Of a stretch of DNA of 36,070 nt, positions 1,737 to 20,849 are shown piece after piece. Source of the DNA: an uncultured Clostridia bacterium (GTDB lineage Bacteria > Bacillota > Clostridia > Christensenellales > UBA1242); the NCBI GenBank assembly GCA_944383375.1, contig CALWPG010000010.1, positions 1 through 36,070 on the forward strand, in the 5' to 3' direction. The position numbers and the translations under genes were made by a program. The notes beneath the pieces are model-generated. The model worked only from the letters and a program-made list of their open reading frames with translations, had not been told where the DNA came from and ran no database searches. Each line of letters opens with the position of its first letter. Position 1 is the stretch's first letter.

Positions 1737-3812
1737 ATGGCAGAAGAGAGTTTGAAATTCACTCGTAACGTTGGTATCATGGCTCACATCGATGCCGGCA
1801 AAACGACAACAACAGAAAGAATTCTTTTCTACACTGGTATCAACCATAAAATTGGTGAAGTGCACGATGGTGCTGCAACAATGGACTGGATGGCACAAGA
1901 ACAAGAACGTGGTATAACCATAACTTCTGCTTGTACAACTTGCCATTGGAAAAATCACAAAATCAATATCATCGACACTCCGGGACACGTTGACTTCACA
2001 ATTGAAGTTTTGCGTTCATTAAAGGTTCTTGATGGTGCAGTTTTGGTGCTTAGTGCGCGTGATAAAGTTCAACCACAGACCGAAACAGTTTGGCGTCAAG
2101 CAAACGAATGCAAAGTTCCTGTAATCATCTTTGTAAACAAAATGGACAGAGATGATGCATATTTTGACAAATGCGTTGAATCAGTTAGAGATAGACTTCA
2201 CACAAAGCCATTGCCACTTCAAATGCCAATTGGTATGGCTGATACTTTCAAAGGTATAATTGATCTTTTAACAATGAAGGCATATATTCCAGAAGATGAT
2301 TTTGGAAAAATTGTTGATGAAGTTGAAATACCTGAGGAATACAAAGCAGAGGCACAAAAACGTCACGATGAGCTTATCGAAGCTATCGTTGAAACTGACG
2401 ATGCACTTTTGGAAAAATATTTTGGTGGTGAAGAGATTACTCTTGACGAACTGAAAAAAGCAATAAGAAAAGCAACCATCGCAAAACAAGTTACACCAAT
2501 GCTTTGTGGTTCTTCATACAAAAACAAAGGTGTTCAAAACCTTCTTGACGCAATGGTAGATTATCTACCTGCTCCAACTGATATTGAGTCCATAAAGGGC
2601 ATCAATCCAGAGACTGGAGAGGAAGAAGTTCGCCATCCAGACTTCAATGCACCACTTGCAGGCCTTGCATTCAAAATTGCAACTGACCCATATGTTGGAA
2701 CACTTACGTTCTTCCGTGTATACAGTGGTGTACTCAAAGCAGGATCATATGTTTACAATGCAAACACAGGTAAAACTGAACGTGTTGGTAGACTTATCCG
2801 TATGCACGCAAACAATCGTACTGAAATAAGCGAAGTAAAAGCAGGCGATATAGCCGCAATAGTAGGACTCAAAGACACCATCACAGGACACACTCTTTGC
2901 GATGAAGATCACCCAATCCAACTTGAAAGTATGAAGTTCCCAGAGCCAGTTATCCAACTTGCCATCGAACCTAAAACAAAGGATATGCAAGAAAAGATGG
3001 CTATTGCACTTGGAAAACTTTCAAGAGAAGATCCATCATTTAGAGTTCAAACCGATCAAGAAACTGGACAAACCTTGATTTCTGGTATGGGTGAGTTGCA
3101 CCTTGAAATCATCGTTGATAGACTTCTTCGCGAGTTTAAGGTTGAAGCCAATGTCGGCAAACCACAAGTTGCATACCGTGAGACAATCAGAAAAACTGTT
3201 GAGGCAGAAGGTAAATTTGTTCGTCAAAGCGGTGGTAAAGGTCAATACGGTCACTGCTGGGTTAAGTTTGAACCACTTGAGCCAGGTTCTGGCTATGAAT
3301 TTGTTGATAAGACTGTTGGTGGGTCAATTCCAAAAGAATTTATTCAACCTGTCAACAAAGGTATTGATGAAGCTAGAATGAACGGTGTTATCGCTGGTTA
3401 TGAGACAATTGACTTCAGAGCAACTGTTTTCGACGGATCATACCATGATGTCGACTCCAGTGAAATGGCGTTTAAGATCGCGGGATCACTTGCATTCAAA
3501 GAGGGTGCAGCCAAAGCAGATCCAGTGCTACTTGAGCCTATCATGAAAGTTGAAGTTGACGTTCCAGATGAATACCTTGGAACAGTCATGGGCAACCTCA
3601 CATCACGTCGTGGTATACTGCTTGGAAATGACTCAATTCCAGGATATCAACGTGTTCGTGCAGAAGTGCCACTAGCAGAAATGTTCGGTTATGCGACCGA
3701 TCTTCGTTCTCAAACCCAAGGACGTGGTACCTTCGTTATGGAACCACTTAAGTATCAAGAGGTGCCTAGGTCTATTACAGAGAAGATTGTTGGCGAACGC
3801 AAGAGAAATTGA
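1737..3812 (+). CDS. fusA: elongation factor G
   Basis: The 691-residue product is EF-G, the GTPase that drives tRNA-mRNA translocation on the ribosome. GTPase motifs are intact: AHIDAGKT (16-23), DTPGH (80-84), NKMD (134-137). Domains II to V follow with typical signatures, for example [20 protein letters not shown] and GRGTFVME near the C-terminus. Length is normal. AAAGGAG lies just before the ATG. The gene is separated from rpsG by a 386-nt repeat-rich gap, longer than usual for this operon. Confidence 0.98.
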
Positions 3813-13960: not shown

Positions 13961-13983
13961 ATTATTTGCATAGGAGGAGTTCT

Positions 13984-16900
13984 TTGAAGCATTACGGAAA
14001 AGTAATTTCAAATTTAAGAAGAAAGTGCAATATGACGCAACAACAATTGGGAGAGAAATTAAATGTGTCATATCAGGCCGTTTCGAAATGGGAGAATGAT
14101 ATTTCAGAACCAGATCTTTCCACCATTGAAAAGATGGTGGAGATCTTTGATATTTCCATGTCTGATTTTTTTGAAATGGCAAAAGATCCAGAGCATTCAG
14201 ATGGCAAAACTTTACCAGAAGTTGTTGAATCTAAAAAAGTAAGTGACACTAAAAAAAGTTTGATACAATCCAAGCCTTGGTATTTAGCTATAGGTCTTGG
14301 TGTTTTAATCGTAATTTTTGCACTTTGTGCCTTTTTAATTCCGGTAAAATATTCAAGCAGTGAAATATATTCAATGGTCGATCCCTCTGTCTTTTGTATA
14401 ACAGCCGAAGGAAGTTTCGGACAGTCTGCAGGTTCGGGATTTTTTATAAACAACAAAGGTCTGGCTGTGACAAATTATCATGTGATAAAAAATTGCACCA
14501 GTGGCAAAGTACAACTAAGCAATGGTGAAACATATGACATACTTAAAATTGTTGGTTGTGATGAGGACAAAGACATAGCCATTATACAAATAGATATTGA
14601 AAGTTCAAAAAGTGCAAAGATTGGCGATAGCAACAAGATTAAAGTTGGTGATGTCGTGTATGCCATTGGTTATCCAGAATCATTTCAATTAGGAAGCGCA
14701 AATAGTACATTCACGCAAGGTATTATTTCAAAAGTTTCATATACATACGAAGACAACACCTACATCCAGACCACAGTGGATATGACTCGAGGCAACAGTG
14801 GAGGCGTGCTTTTAAACAGCCAAGGTGAGGTCATTGGGATAACGACAATGATGCTCACGGATGGCATTGTAGATTATATGAATATGGCCATTCCTATAAA
14901 TAGAGTTGATGAGGTGGAGCACGATTTAAACATGTCCTTATTGGACTATTATGAAAGGAACAAGGTCTTTTATTTTTACAGCGATGGTCAAGTTATTCAT
15001 AGTTTGAACTTCATAAGAGGAGACATGATCAAAAAAATAGATGATCCGACAAAATTGGGTTATATTTTTGAGGGCTGGTATGAGACTTCCGAGTATACAA
15101 AAGAATTTGATTTTGATTCCCCAGTTTATGATAAAACCCAATGTTTCGCAAAGTGGACTCCAATTTCTTATACTATTAAATTTAATGCCAATGGTGGTAC
15201 GGGAGAAATGTCCGATGTTGTCGCAACTTATGACCAAGCCCTTACTTTGCCATCGTTGACCTTCAGCAACCCTCATCATAACTTTGTAAAGTGGGAAAGA
15301 CAGGATAATAAACAAGCATATTCTAACAACCAAAGTATATTTAATTTAACAACTCAAGATAAAGCAATAATTATTCTAGATGCAATATGGGAGATTCAAA
15401 AATATACCATCATATTTGATGGAAACAATGCCCAAAGTGGAGAAATGAGCAATTTGGTTTTGGAGTACGACCAAGTCATAGATCTGCCAAAAAATCAATA
15501 TGAAAAACAAGGATACATTTTTGAGGGATGGACTTATGACGACAAGGTGTACCAAGACATGCAGGAAGTTTCAAAACTTTGTGAAACAGAGGGCACAATA
15601 ACGCTCACTGCCAAGTGGCAGCCTATTAGCTATGTGGTAAGATATGAGTTTGAGGGTCAGTCAAGCTATGAGCAAACTTTTTACTATGATCAACCACAAA
15701 GCCTTTTGCCTGCTACTTTTGAAAAACCATACCATACCTTTACATATTGGTATTGTGAATCAGAAAGACTGAAATTTGACGATCAAGTACAAATCTTTAA
15801 TTTGACATCAACTCAAGGAGAGGTTTTTATCTTTACAGCAAATTTTAGAGAAAACATTTACACCGTACGTTACAACCCATCAACTGAGGTGGATTTGAAC
15901 AATTGCGTGGAAGTACAATTAAAGTATTCGCAAGAGATTCAATCGCGGGCTTGTATGTTTACAAAACTGGGTTACAACTTTTCACATTGGGTGGATGAAT
16001 ATGGCAATATTTATGAACGTTCAATGCAATATATTGATGGTAAATATGTTGAGGTGGGAACACCAATAAGTAAACTCACGCCTGTAGATCAAGATGTTGT
16101 GGATTTCTTTGCAGTATGGGAAATGGTTACATATAAAGTGTTTTATAGATATAAGCTAAAAAGTGGAACAAAAGATGTCGAATTGGGGACATTTGCCTAT
16201 GAAGACGAAATTGTTTTGTTGCAGCCACAATATATTGATGATGGTTATGAATTTGAGTATTGGCTACTTCGGCCAAATTGGGAAACTGCAATGCCAGGTG
16301 ATGTAGTTTCTCGGTTATCAACCCAAAACACCTATGACGCATACATTGAGGCTGTGTACAAACCAAAGCTTTACACCATCAACTTTGATGGCAATGGTGC
16401 AACCAAAGGTGAAATGCAACCTGTTGAGGCAACATTTGACAGTGAGGTCACATTGCCACAAAATGAATTTATCAAAGATGGATACACATTCTATGGTTGG
16501 AAGTATGAAGATCAAATTTACACGACAAACAACATTGGAATACCAATTAGCACCTATGCCGAGAGTATAACACTCACAGCTGTTTGGCTAGACAATTTAA
16601 AAGGTGAGGGTACATTTTCAAATCCTTATACTATTTCTACAATTGAAGATATAAATCAATTCTTTAAACTCTCACAAATTCACCAATTCAAAAATAGTCA
16701 TGTCGTATTACAAAACGACATAGATTGCAGCTTTGCCAAACTACCTTCAACCAATTTTGCAGGTGTTTTTGATGGGAAGGGGCACAAACTCATAAACGTG
16801 GACTATCAGGATGGAACATTATTTCAGGAAAACAGTGGCGTTATTTTGAATTTTGGCATTGAAAATTTGAAAATTGATTTAGTCAATGAAAACGACAGTG

Positions 16901-18435
16901 TCTATGTATATGGGTTAGCCAAACTCAATAAAGGATATATCTCACGTTGTCATGTCAAAGGGGATATAACCGTGAGCAGTACGGGTAGTGTGTATATATA
17001 TGGATTTGTTGGAAGCAACGCATCAATAGGTGCTCAAAGACAAATTGAATATTGTTTTGCAAATTTGAGTGTGAATATTTCCTCAGATTCCGATATAGAC
17101 ACTTGTTTGGTCTATGGATTTGCTGGAGGGAGTAATTACAATGTGGATTATAATTACAGTGTACTATCCTTAACTGCAAATTTAAAAATTGTTAACAATC
17201 TTATCGTAAATGCCTATGGCTCAAAGAACGACCATAGTTTCGCAAAGGCAAATATTGATGTGAGTGTGGATAATGCCAATAATTATAATTTCTCGCAAAC
17301 TGCTACTTATTATTCAGATGATAGCTATATCAAGGTTTTGATTGGTGGGAAATCAGTTCCAAAACTTGTTGAAAAAGTCACGGCACTTTCAAATTTGACA
17401 AACAAACAATGGATGGAAGAAAACTTGTTTGATGTGTCGGGTGCATGGATTTATGATTCCATTAATTTTCCAATGCCAAGTTACACCTTCCAAAAGGTGA
17501 TTGAAACGCAAGAACAATTTATTTCTCTTAACAATGGAGTTTTAGTTGGTGACTATATATTAAATTGCGACATTGATCTAAGTGAAAATAACAATTTTAG
17601 GATTGCAGCAAACTATGGCTCATTTGATGGAAATGGACACGTGATTAAAAATTACTCTTTAACAGAAAATGACTATAAAAATAACTATGGTCTGTTTGAA
17701 AAAAATTTTGGCACAATTAAAAATTTGGGTGTAGACAATTTACTTTTTGATCTACATTTCAGAGATCTTGCTGTGAATGTGGCAGGACTTGTTGTTGAAA
17801 ACTGGGGCACTGTCAATGCTTGTTTTGTTAGAGGAGATATTGAGGCATTATCAATCGACAGCGACTGTATAGTGGGTGGAATTGTTGCCATTTCAAGATC
17901 AGGAGAAGTTTTGAACAGCTATTCAGACGTTTCGGTTTATGCAAGTGCAACATCTGGAGCATATTCCGATGTAAAGGCAAATGCATATTCAGGTGGAATA
18001 ATAGCGATTGGAGAGGGAGAAGTTGAAAATTGCTATAGTGTAAAAGACGTGGTCACATATGCTCATTATGCAAATGGAACATTGTTTTCCGCCTATGGAA
18101 TTTCAGGCGCAGATGGAATTGTGAAAAATAGTTTTGTCTTGTCCAATGTAGCAGTTTCAGAATATAATTCCAGTGGTAAATACCAAGCTGGTGGAATAAG
18201 CAAAGAGTTCGAAAATTCCTTCGCCTATGAATGGCAAACTGTGACGGTCATAGAAGAGGACCTGTCTTTTGGCGACAAGTCGTATGATGAATTTTGTTCT
18301 TTGGTATTCCTTGAAGCACTTGATTTTGAGCAGTTTGTCTCAAAGGAAAATTTATTGCAAAATGAAAATGCAGTTTGGGTGATAACTGAAACTGATTTGC
18401 CAAAATTATGGTTTGAAGAAGAGGGAAATTTATGA
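13984..18435 (+). CDS. XRE-HTH, membrane, trypsin-like protease, B-repeat and beta-helix fusion
   Basis: The 1483-residue product begins at TTG 13984 (AGGAGG 6 nt before). Order of parts: XRE helix-turn-helix (about 3-57, MTQQQLGEKLNVSYQAVSKWE); linker; one membrane helix (about 99-121); S1C/DegP-like serine protease with His166 (TNYHV), Asp197 (DKDIAII) and Ser272 (RGNSGG); about seven InlB-type B repeats (about 329-870, each ending in a W motif such as AKW or AVW, with GYxFxGW); then a GLUG-like right-handed beta-helix region (about 876-1483). No PDZ domain is evident. The HTH would sit in the cytoplasm and the protease and repeats outside. This could be a membrane-tethered transcription factor coupled to an envelope protease; that function is inference. 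The frame is free of lesions over 4.45 kb. It overlaps the next gene by 4 nt. Confidence 0.88.
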   Translation: MKHYGKVISNLRRKCNMTQQQLGEKLNVSYQAVSKWENDISEPDLSTIEKMVEIFDISMSDFFEMAKDPEHSDGKTLPEVVESKKVSDTKKSLIQSKPWYLAIGLGVLIVIFALCAFLIPVKYSSSEIYSMVDPSVFCITAEGSFGQSAGSGFFINNKGLAVTNYHVIKNCTSGKVQLSNGETYDILKIVGCDEDKDIAIIQIDIESSKSAKIGDSNKIKVGDVVYAIGYPESFQLGSANSTFTQGIISKVSYTYEDNTYIQTTVDMTRGNSGGVLLNSQGEVIGITTMMLTDGIVDYMNMAIPINRVDEVEHDLNMSLLDYYERNKVFYFYSDGQVIHSLNFIRGDMIKKIDDPTKLGYIFEGWYETSEYTKEFDFDSPVYDKTQCFAKWTPISYTIKFNANGGTGEMSDVVATYDQALTLPSLTFSNPHHNFVKWERQDNKQAYSNNQSIFNLTTQDKAIIILDAIWEIQKYTIIFDGNNAQSGEMSNLVLEYDQVIDLPKNQYEKQGYIFEGWTYDDKVYQDMQEVSKLCETEGTITLTAKWQPISYVVRYEFEGQSSYEQTFYYDQPQSLLPATFEKPYHTFTYWYCESERLKFDDQVQIFNLTSTQGEVFIFTANFRENIYTVRYNPSTEVDLNNCVEVQLKYSQEIQSRACMFTKLGYNFSHWVDEYGNIYERSMQYIDGKYVEVGTPISKLTPVDQDVVDFFAVWEMVTYKVFYRYKLKSGTKDVELGTFAYEDEIVLLQPQYIDDGYEFEYWLLRPNWETAMPGDVVSRLSTQNTYDAYIEAVYKPKLYTINFDGNGATKGEMQPVEATFDSEVTLPQNEFIKDGYTFYGWKYEDQIYTTNNIGIPISTYAESITLTAVWLDNLKGEGTFSNPYTISTIEDINQFFKLSQIHQFKNSHVVLQNDIDCSFAKLPSTNFAGVFDGKGHKLINVDYQDGTLFQENSGVILNFGIENLKIDLVNENDSVYVYGLAKLNKGYISRCHVKGDITVSSTGSVYIYGFVGSNASIGAQRQIEYCFANLSVNISSDSDIDTCLVYGFAGGSNYNVDYNYSVLSLTANLKIVNNLIVNAYGSKNDHSFAKANIDVSVDNANNYNFSQTATYYSDDSYIKVLIGGKSVPKLVEKVTALSNLTNKQWMEENLFDVSGAWIYDSINFPMPSYTFQKVIETQEQFISLNNGVLVGDYILNCDIDLSENNNFRIAANYGSFDGNGHVIKNYSLTENDYKNNYGLFEKNFGTIKNLGVDNLLFDLHFRDLAVNVAGLVVENWGTVNACFVRGDIEALSIDSDCIVGGIVAISRSGEVLNSYSDVSVYASATSGAYSDVKANAYSGGIIAIGEGEVENCYSVKDVVTYAHYANGTLFSAYGISGADGIVKNSFVLSNVAVSEYNSSGKYQAGGISKEFENSFAYEWQTVTVIEEDLSFGDKSYDEFCSLVFLEALDFEQFVSKENLLQNENAVWVITETDLPKLWFEEEGNL

Positions 18436-18899
18436 AAATTACTATCAACAATGAATTGACAAAAAACAAAGAACTGTATTTTGAGGAAGGTTTTTGGACG
18501 GGTAAAAGAACTGTCAAATATGATGGAGTTACTTTGCCAAAACAAAGAAAAAATTTATATCTTTACGACAACGGACAGACTACTGAATATTTTGAAATAA
18601 TTGGTAATCAATTGATTGGAATAAGCATAAAATTGTTTGGCAAAAATGTTGAAATATTACGGAAACTTGAATGGTACGAAATTGTTATGTCTCTTCTCGT
18701 TTTTTTGCCATGTATACTCTTTGGAGCAATTGGGGGTGTCTTTGGAGGTGCTTTGGGATTTACAAATTTGGTGATAATAAGGCAAGTTGATAAATTGTAT
18801 CTAAAAATAATTTTTTCAGTGGAATTTTTGGCACTTGCTATGCTAGCAAGTTATATCTTCGCCGTGCTAATTTTAAAAATTGTTTTTCCTTATTTGTAA
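18432..18899 (+). CDS. small integral membrane protein coupled to the HTH-protease
   Basis: The 155-residue product starts inside the stop of the preceding gene (ATGA overlap), a sign of translational coupling. Residues 1-75 are a soluble beta-rich head (FWTGKRTVKYDG, NLYLYDNG, a segment FEIIGNQLIGISIKLFG). Two hydrophobic hairpins follow (about 80-115, rich in Gly: GAIGGVFGGALGF; and about 122-153), suggesting three or four membrane passes. I do not recognise the family. Its fixed overlap with the giant protein suggests a membrane partner of it. Confidence 0.7.
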   Translation: MKITINNELTKNKELYFEEGFWTGKRTVKYDGVTLPKQRKNLYLYDNGQTTEYFEIIGNQLIGISIKLFGKNVEILRKLEWYEIVMSLLVFLPCILFGAIGGVFGGALGFTNLVIIRQVDKLYLKIIFSVEFLALAMLASYIFAVLILKIVFPYL

Positions 18900-18914: not shown

Positions 18915-18942
18915 TTGACATTTTTTGGTAATATGCTATAAT
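18915..18942 (+). promoter_or_regulatory. strong promoter of the exporter leader
   Basis: Consensus TTGACA (18915-18920), 16 bp, consensus TATAAT (18937-18942) with extended TGC. The best promoter in the window; it faces a leader that would be terminated twice by default. Confidence 0.85.
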
Positions 18943-18961
18943 TGGGCAAAGGAATAAAGAA

Positions 18962-18997
18962 ATGTACACTATTCAAGAAAGATTTAAGTTGATATGA
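18962..18997 (+). CDS. 11-residue leader peptide of the ABC exporter
   Basis: AAAGGA (18948-18953) lies 8 nt before ATG 18962, and the frame reads MYTIQERFKLI then TGA. It begins about 13 nt after the predicted transcription start. Its last codons (18981-18990) form one arm of a long-range helix, and its stop codon touches the first terminator stem, so translation of this peptide should control the downstream structures. Short peptides of this kind precede drug-responsive resistance and exporter genes in Bacillota. Confidence 0.65.
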   Translation: MYTIQERFKLI

Positions 18998-19038
18998 CAT
19001 CGTATAAAACTCAAGGCAAGTTTTATATGATGTTTTTT
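18997..19038 (+). terminator. terminator T1 of the exporter leader
   Basis: ACATCGTATAAAACT pairs with AGTTTTATATGATGT across a 7-nt loop, followed by TTTTT. It starts on the last base of the leader-peptide stop codon. Confidence 0.8.
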
Positions 19039-19082
19039 GCGTATATAAAACTTGTGGACTTAAATCGTATTTGATAATCAAT

Positions 19083-19115
19083 AAAGTTCACAGCTTCGTC
19101 TTGTGAACTTTTTTT
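19083..19115 (+). terminator. terminator T2 of the exporter leader
   Basis: AAAGTTCACA and TGTGAACTTT form a 10-bp stem with a 9-nt loop and a T run, 48 nt before the exporter start codon. Confidence 0.85.
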
Positions 19116-19163
19116 ATAAGTTTTATATATTTTTCTGCCTAAAAAAATTTAAAGGAGAAAAAT

Positions 19164-20849
19164 ATGTTTTTAAAAAGATACAAAAATTTATATAAATTCA
19201 AACCTTATTTTGCAAAGTACAAAAGTCAAACAATTTTACTTGTTATTTGCATGATAATCGCGAGCAGTATGGGTATGGTATTAGCGTACCTTATGAGTGA
19301 ACAATTATCGGCGATTTCCAACATCAATATTTCTAAGATGGTCAAATCTACCGTGTTTATTTTGGTTGCTGTGCTAGTCCATCATACAACTTGGTTCTTT
19401 TGGGATAAAATATCTGCAATTATTGGCAATAAAGTTGCGAATGATATACGTAATGATATTTTTTCAAATGCACTTAGCACACAATACCAAATAATTAAAA
19501 ATAACTCCACAGGCTATTACATTGAGAGACTAAACGATGACACCAATGAGATTTCATTTTTTGTTCAAAATGTTTATGGTACATTGGTGGATGTCGCAAC
19601 TAATTTTACTTTCTTGATAATTATTTTCTTTCTTAATTGGCAGTGTGGGTTGTTTTTTAGCATAGGCTTAATTGTGCTTTATTTTTTGGATGTGCTTAAA
19701 ATTAAAGTAGAGTTAAAGCATACAAAAAAGATAAAAGTGCTTAGTGAACGACTAAACAGCAAAATGACGGAAGCAATTCGGGGTATTAAAGATATAAAAG
19801 GGCTTGGCATCAAAAATGAAGTGTGCATGATCAACGGAGAGATCAGCAAACAACTCGCAGTTAAAAATACCAAAATGAAGGTTGACGTGACTTTGCTTGA
19901 AAGATTGAGGACATTTTGTCAATGGGCAATTGACTGTTCTCTTGTGTTTTTGTGCGCGTTTTGGCTTTTTCCTACGGGACAAATCGATGTATTGGTAATT
20001 TTAATAATTTTTAATTACAAAAGTTTGATGTATGACACGATAGGCTTTTTTTCAAAATTAAAGGGATACTATGTTCAGGGGGATTTCAAAGCACAAAGAA
20101 TACTTGAGGTATTAAATGACGACATAAAAGATGTGTTTGGAAACAATACAATTTCAAACAAGAAAAGTAGTATAAAAGTTAAAAATTTGTCATTTTCATA
20201 TGGCGATAAAAAAGTTTTAAAAAATATTTCGCTGAAACTGAAAGAGAATACGGCAACCTTACTGATTGGTGAAAGTGGGAGTGGGAAAAGTATATTTTTT
20301 AGTTTGTTAACAAAACTAAATCCAGTGAAAAATGGTAAAATTTTTATAGATGATGTTGATTTGAACAACCTTGGCGAAGAAGAGCTTACCAAACATATAA
20401 GCATAGTGAATCAAGAGCCATTTGTGTTTAATGATACTCTATATAACAATTTAAGAATAGTTAAACCCACTGCCACGAAGGATGAAATTTACACGGCATG
20501 TAAAAATGCCCATATCTATGATGAAGTAGTATCAATGAAAGATGGATTTAACACCATTTTGGCTGAAAATGGAAGCAACTTAAGTGGTGGACAAAAACAG
20601 AGATTGTAAATTGCACGCGCAATTTTAAAAAACACTCCAATTATTCTTTTTGATGAACCAACGAGTGCTCTTGATGGCGAAAATCAAAAGAAATTTTTAG
20701 CTACAATCAAACAATTAAAAAACGACAAAATTATTTTTGTGATAGCACACAACATACAAAATACATCTGTCTTTGACAAAGTTATCGAAATTTCAGATGG
20801 TAAAATCAAATCAACTTGTCATTTTGAGAAACGTCAACAACTTCATTGA
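19164..20849 (+). pseudogene. ABC exporter (membrane plus ATPase domains) with one in-frame stop
   Basis: The frame would encode about 560 residues: a six-helix exporter domain (about 1-320), then an ATPase with Walker A IGESGSGKS (near 368), signature LSGGQKQR (near 473), Walker B IILFDEPTSALD and the H-loop FVIAHN. A TAA at 20607-20609 falls right after LSGGQKQRL; the same frame then reads IARAILKNTPIILFDEP to the true end at 20849. An ordinary sense codon (Ser, Ala or Cys in relatives) has been replaced. Without Walker B the product could not hydrolyse ATP. AAAGGAG precedes the ATG. The leader before it suggests induction by a translation-affecting compound. Confidence 0.88.

Follow-up and report, generated by a model that had tools for sequence, protein, structure and literature searches.

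The window analysed here, a 36,070-nucleotide stretch, corresponds to contig 10 of a genome of 0.99 Mb, which is 99% complete and comprises 18 contigs. Its leader region lies between an ORF ending at 18899 and a gene for an ABC exporter starting at 19164 (Table 1). The preliminary description of this DNA, which was made from the sequence without database searches, had proposed a near-consensus promoter, a ribosome-binding site and an 11-codon reading frame (MYTIQERFKLI), followed by two terminators with interlocked antiterminators. The ribosome-binding site and the frame were both found where they had been placed, and the promoter, of which a similar version is also present in relatives of this leader, was in fact shown to match the full consensus. 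The Shine-Dalgarno (SD) sequence of the leader ORF is located at or near the extreme 5' end of the predicted transcript. Rfam riboswitch and leader models returned no matches in the window.

Table 1. Coordinates of the leader elements and of the exporter gene in the window
Feature	Position	Strand	Remarks
Promoter TTGACA-16-TATAAT, TG before the -10 box	18915-18942	+	12/12 consensus matches
SD sequence of leader ORF (AAAGGA)	18948-18953	+	From sequence
Leader ORF, MYTIQERFKLI (stop)	18962-18997	+	R-F-K (Arg/Lys-X-Arg/Lys) at 18980-18988
Strand L (leader codons)	18981-18990	+	Pairs with D, 19057-19066; duplex z -5.2, 0/300 shuffles
Strand a (T1 5' arm)	18998-19011	+
Strand b (T1 3' arm, alternative partner of c)	19019-19032	+	Both pairings kept in relatives
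U-tract of T1	19033-19038	+	Window only, by comparison with relatives
Strand c (T1 antiterminator when paired with b)	19042-19053	+	Also complementary to h
Strand d (T2 antiterminator with e, 19084-19092)	19053-19061	+	Overlaps D; duplex z -4.1
Strand D (partner of leader codons)	19057-19066	+
Intrinsic terminator T2, then U	19083-19111	+	Arms 19083-19093 and 19101-19111
Strand h (after T2, complement of c)	19117-19130	+	Duplex -12.2 kcal/mol, z -6.4
Exporter SD sequence	19152-19157	+	Within predicted hairpin
Type IV ABC exporter ORF (ABC_membrane + ABC_tran)	19164-20609	+	Early TAA at 20607-20609; frame continues to 20849

The RNA spanning positions 18949-19118 was predicted to fold with a minimum free energy (MFE) of -40.6 kcal/mol (z = -4.17), a value that no shuffled sequence equalled. 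The MFE structure includes T1, T2 and the long helix 18981-18990/19057-19066, which had been proposed to link the peptide codons to the second switch. A terminator scan recovered both T1 and T2 at the positions described and identified five terminators in 4 kb, compared with 1.7 +/- 1.4 in shuffled sequences. The two antiterminators were also found to pair as described (AT1, 19019-19028/19043-19052; AT2, 19053-19061/19084-19092), and the L:D helix and the d:e duplex were each better than all 300 dinucleotide shuffles. Since L:D encloses or overlaps strand d, the L:D and d:e pairings are mutually exclusive, except as a pseudoknot.

A DNA similarity search with the leader returned only short AT-rich chance matches, and relatives were therefore identified through the exporter protein. 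When the exporter protein was searched against 309 family genomes (E <= 1e-80), orthologs were detected in 18 genomes, including that of the window, with a patchy spread over 7 of 42 genera and with 45-84% identity to L003. Among 398 genomes across the phylum, no close homolog of the exporter was found besides the window's own; the order contained one distant homolog, which is not preceded by a leader of the window type, and plasmids carried no close homolog (best 27-31%). When the upstream regions of all 18 orthologs were read, each was shown to carry, ahead of the exporter gene, both a short ORF and an intrinsic terminator. The strand order of the window, with its alternative pairing and covariation, was observed in 14 of the 17 other exporter genomes and in one genome with other genes downstream. 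In two genomes of different genera (G099 and G158), the leader and its upstream flank are nearly identical (L076 and L077), indicative of either recent transfer or a mis-binned contig.

On an alignment of 14 leaders, stems a:b and b:c kept 92 and 95% of their pairs, respectively, with four pairs changed on both sides in a:b (reached by 6 of 500 shuffles) and three in b:c (reached by 22 of 500); sliding the partner strands by one to three columns lowered pairing to 63% or less. Judged from this alignment, strand b has two conserved partners, a and c. The d:e duplex likewise kept 95% of its pairs, but its changes are mostly one-sided, so that covariation lends d:e no support of its own. The covariation anticipated in the leaders of relatives was thus borne out for a:b and b:c and hardly for d:e. 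In one leader (L005), T2 and its antiterminator have both been replaced (GCACCCA/TGGGTGC with TGGTGG/CCACCA), representing a concerted change. Seventeen leaders were also tested singly with 300 shuffles each; the L:D helix outperformed at least 95% of the shuffles in 11 of them and at least 90% in 13.

The comparison also showed which part of the design is local. A U-tract directly after strand b was observed in the window only; relatives retain the a:b and b:c pairings without a terminator at that position. Adjacent tandem intrinsic terminators are present in the window, as had been claimed, but the function that is conserved does not reside in the pair of terminators, which represents a local elaboration. 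The conserved parts, as the comparison indicates, are the second switch (leader codons paired with D versus d:e versus T2) and strands a, b and c.

Two terminator-like hairpins between two genes might also be plain terminators, of which one or both would either end transcription of the gene upstream (18432-18899) or insulate the exporter, with the short ORF being fortuitous. This is very improbable, as a full-consensus promoter is positioned between the upstream gene and T1, while 15 other genomes, in which the neighbouring genes differ, likewise have the ORF with its motif and register, the strands and T2, and genes other than the exporter can follow the leader.

All 18 exporter loci, as well as the additional genome with other downstream genes (G222), were found to carry a short ORF with its own SD sequence, although in L006 and L007 this SD sequence is weak and the ORF was assigned by alignment. 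The conserved leader peptide that had been expected in relatives was recovered as an Arg/Lys-X-Arg/Lys (+X+) motif, present in all 18 exporter leader peptides as KLR, KLK, RFK, RFR or KIK. Besides that of the window, the peptides are MCIIMKLRTK, MCTIMKLRTK (two), MCTILKLRTE, MIVILKLRNK, MCIILKLRTK, MFTILKLRTK (two), MIILKLRIK, MIILKLKIN, MFTIFKLRIM, MICCILKLRNK (two) and MFCLERFRINK, together with MCTILKLRKITLNANMLYLY, MCTILKLKKYSLNANVFYLD and MCPNILANKIKATAAE (L081, L082 and L079, respectively), the last three belonging to leaders with a simpler or different architecture. The first residues vary freely and single-amino-acid runs are absent. The RFK of the window occupies the same register as the KLR of its relatives, though adjacent residues differ, and the chance of a +X+ motif at one given register is approximately 0.018 at the base composition of the window. 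X is followed by exactly three codons in 14 of 15 leaders that share the window architecture, by which the edge of a ribosome arrested with X in its P site would meet the base of stem a:b.

Motifs of this type are found in the leaders of macrolide resistance genes, including ErmDL, MefEL, MsrCL (MTASMKLRFELLNNN) and the tlrB leader MIIQFIRYR (PMC8298421, PMC4335068, PMC6851288). In ErmDL (PMC8298421) and the tlrB leader (PMC6851288), the ribosome stalls with its P site at X and its A site at the second basic residue; toeprints were taken as 15-16 nt downstream in the tlrB work (PMC6851288). The preliminary description had left the inducing signal open, whereas the conserved motif now predicts a macrolide or ketolide-like inducer. 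The motif does not single out one drug, because only some +X+ motifs lead to ribosome stalling with erythromycin (PMC6851288).

The effect of a stalled ribosome was modelled on transcripts that stop before the 3' arm of T2, because the equilibrium of the full transcript nearly always favours T2; the resulting probabilities are equilibrium values on shortened transcripts and not co-transcriptional ones. When the window transcript was folded as far as the T2 loop without a ribosome, the probability was 0.96 for L:D and 0.03 for d:e. A ribosome placed at F8 raised the latter to 0.97, and placement at any of codons 5-11 gave values of 0.91-0.98. The basal pairs of T1 retained a probability of 0.62 with a ribosome at codon 8 and were fully lost from codon 9, while in the transcript ending at 19060 the b:c helix was dominant (0.97-0.99) from codon 8 onwards. 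The earlier proposal that one stalled ribosome defeats both terminators consequently applies to T2 for codons 5-11, but to T1 only from codon 8, the predicted stall codon, at which it is borderline. Averaged over 15 relatives (14 exporter leaders and that of G222), placing the ribosome at X increased d:e from 0.06 to 0.70, compared with 0.34 to 0.47 in a control with region D shuffled. L076 and L077 switched weakly in the folding model and L080 did not switch.

Taken with the elements, their conservation and covariation, and the motif register, this predicted change of fold suggests that the region is probably a ribosome-mediated transcription attenuator that senses a drug acting on the ribosome, with the macrolide/ketolide type being the most likely. 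In the absence of drug, the ribosome would clear the 11-codon leader, L would pair with D and sequester d, T2 (and, in the window, T1) would form and transcription would stop before the exporter gene. In the presence of drug, the ribosome is expected to stall within R-F-K with the Phe codon in the P site; by covering L it would prevent L:D pairing, leaving d to pair with the 5' arm of T2 and allowing the polymerase to read through. In the window, the front edge of the stalled ribosome would additionally reach the base of T1 and favour the b:c helix. Macrolides would in this way relieve termination in cells, and the exporter would then presumably remove the drug.

The same attenuator could instead respond to another cause of stalling, such as generally slow translation, a different 50S drug or a shortage of charged Arg, Lys or Leu tRNA, and would then not be specific for macrolides. 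On the RNA side, a stall at +X+ is not itself needed, because a ribosome held anywhere on codons 5-11 frees d:e in the window, and lincomycin, erythromycin and chloramphenicol all elicit a response of BmrCD (PMC4191407). Codon starvation, however, would not require the register of the motif to be kept while its residues change (RFK, KLR, KLK), and the peptides display neither single-amino-acid runs nor constraint on their first residues. We consider such a broader signal unlikely.

A further step may act at translation. Strand h forms the 5' side of the region hiding the exporter SD sequence, and the hairpin covering this sequence is shared among relatives (mean MFE z of -2.1 over 19 leaders), suggesting that it may add a translational step to attenuation. 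As a stalled ribosome did not open the SD hairpin in the equilibrium folding model, this tier stays a proposal.

Leaders with a +X+ motif and transcriptional attenuation are represented by ermK/ermD, mef(E) and tlrB, the last with an SD hairpin, and a +X+ leader also precedes msr(C) (PMC4335068, PMC6851288). Judged by anatomy, the present system combines traits of these attenuators, of the ermK tandem terminators and of BmrCD, and resembles the ermK/mefE/tlrB kind. The leader of tlrB (yxjB) of Bacillus subtilis is short (nine codons, RYR), is followed by a terminator and an SD-sequestering hairpin, and stalls the ribosome with X in the P site, as is proposed here; in contrast to the window, it controls a 23S rRNA methyltransferase and its RYR is situated at the extreme C terminus (PMC6851288). 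Bacillus ermK/ermD share the +X+ leader (MRLR) and transcriptional attenuation (PMC4335068, PMC8298421), and ermK also has two adjacent Rho-independent terminators (PMC4335068), but both control rRNA methylases and the 5' region of ermK comprises 354 bases, compared with ~215 here. In mef(E)/mel (msrD), a +X+ leader (MTASMRLR) controls drug efflux by transcriptional attenuation (PMC4335068, PMC10314930), though with a different strand plan and for an efflux facilitator, Mef, and an ABC-F protein.

Regulation of an exporter of the same type is known from bmrB-bmrCD of B. subtilis, where leader-peptide attenuation employing a terminator, an antiterminator and an anti-antiterminator governs a multidrug ABC exporter, BmrCD, of type IV (PMC4191407). 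There, however, the terminator lies within the coding sequence of a long leader, the 162-bp bmrB (PMC4191407), several 50S drugs act as inducers, and two genes, bmrC and bmrD, take the place of a single half-transporter gene. The patAB genes of Streptococcus pneumoniae, which encode an ABC exporter, are similarly preceded by a predicted terminator, antiterminator and anti-antiterminator, but no leader peptide is reported and the inducers are fluoroquinolones and DNA damage (PMC4319486). That a leader-peptide attenuator precedes a type IV ABC exporter is supported by conserved peptide features, conserved and covarying strands and a codon-linked helix, whereas the view that its design is unusual needs qualifying, as each element has a precedent (the exporter in BmrCD, two terminators in ermK, and a terminator, SD hairpin and RYR leader in tlrB).

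The exporter matches type IV exporters, although it meets no NCBIfam cut-off, and the libraries searched gave no resistance annotation for these exporters. In the window, the in-frame TAA splits the protein between LSGGQKQRL and IARA, after the signature motif and before Walker B; beyond it the frame continues as IARAILKNTPIILFDEP and is open for 79 more codons. The product would consequently lack Walker B and everything thereafter. The ortholog in one relative (L081, G255) also contains two internal TAA codons.

A single 23S rRNA was found in the window's genome. It contains GACGGAGAGACC (L084 ~3582-3600; G000 contig 3, 78242-78263) and, by numbering from the conserved motif, has a G at E. 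coli position 2059, a macrolide-resistance position. A DNA query combined with a pattern located this 23S stretch in 24 genomes of the family, of which 20 have A2058/A2059, three have G2059 (the other two being G143 and G154) and one has T2058 (G060). An unbroken exporter frame and a readable 23S sequence coincide in three genomes (G062, G100 and G297), all of which are of the wild type at both positions. An unbroken exporter was accordingly found in 0 of 4 non-wild-type and 3 of 20 wild-type genomes, numbers too small to claim an association.

Together, G2059 and the premature stop imply that the switch in the window's genome may be idle or decaying, and the combination of a broken exporter and a variant 23S rRNA fits relaxed selection. 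It is quite possible, though we lean against it, that the switch persists here as a relic controlling no working exporter, which would be compatible with drug-sensing attenuation in relatives. The stop before Walker B, the two stops in L081 and the wild-type 23S sequences of the three genomes with unbroken frames all agree with such a relic; on the other hand, leader, strands and terminators are still intact in the window, four 23S sequences are too few to judge by, and the consensus of a metagenome-assembled genome may hold a base error.

To return to drug-sensing attenuation, the genes under its presumed control extend beyond the exporter. A covariance model of the leader (R1) matched 16 of the 309 family genomes, namely 15 exporter loci and G222. 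In G222 (L095/L131), the leader MYSVMKLRTK directly precedes a 228-aa P-loop kinase-like gene, with weak likeness to AAA_18/shikimate kinases, followed by a GNAT gene, whereas in G117 (L137) the order is leader, exporter, kinase and GNAT. Alignment of the two revealed the same cassette at 87-89% identity, with the exporter absent in G222. Such an arrangement suggests that the leader is able to govern an operon combining efflux with possible modifying enzymes, and it is plausible that exporter, P-loop kinase and GNAT protein confer resistance to the inducer. More speculatively, and only tentatively, the leader may be able to move as a drug-sensing cassette that acts at both transcription and translation; the resistance operon it drives (type IV exporter, P-loop kinase and GNAT acetyltransferase) would be an undescribed one in an uncultured family, in which 2059-resistant lineages would then lose the exporter.

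With these observations, the genes subject to leader-peptide attenuation through a macrolide arrest motif would come to include that of a type IV ABC exporter, together with its partners in the operon, here in an uncultured lineage and with the inducer predicted from sequence alone. If correct, they point to inducible resistance in bacteria known here only from genome assemblies. The strand plan was shown to be sufficiently conserved to act as a search model, as R1 illustrates. Elsewhere in the window, positions 13966-18435 contain a 1489-aa ORF that combines an HTH_3 domain, a trypsin-like protease domain and Listeria-Bacteroides repeats.
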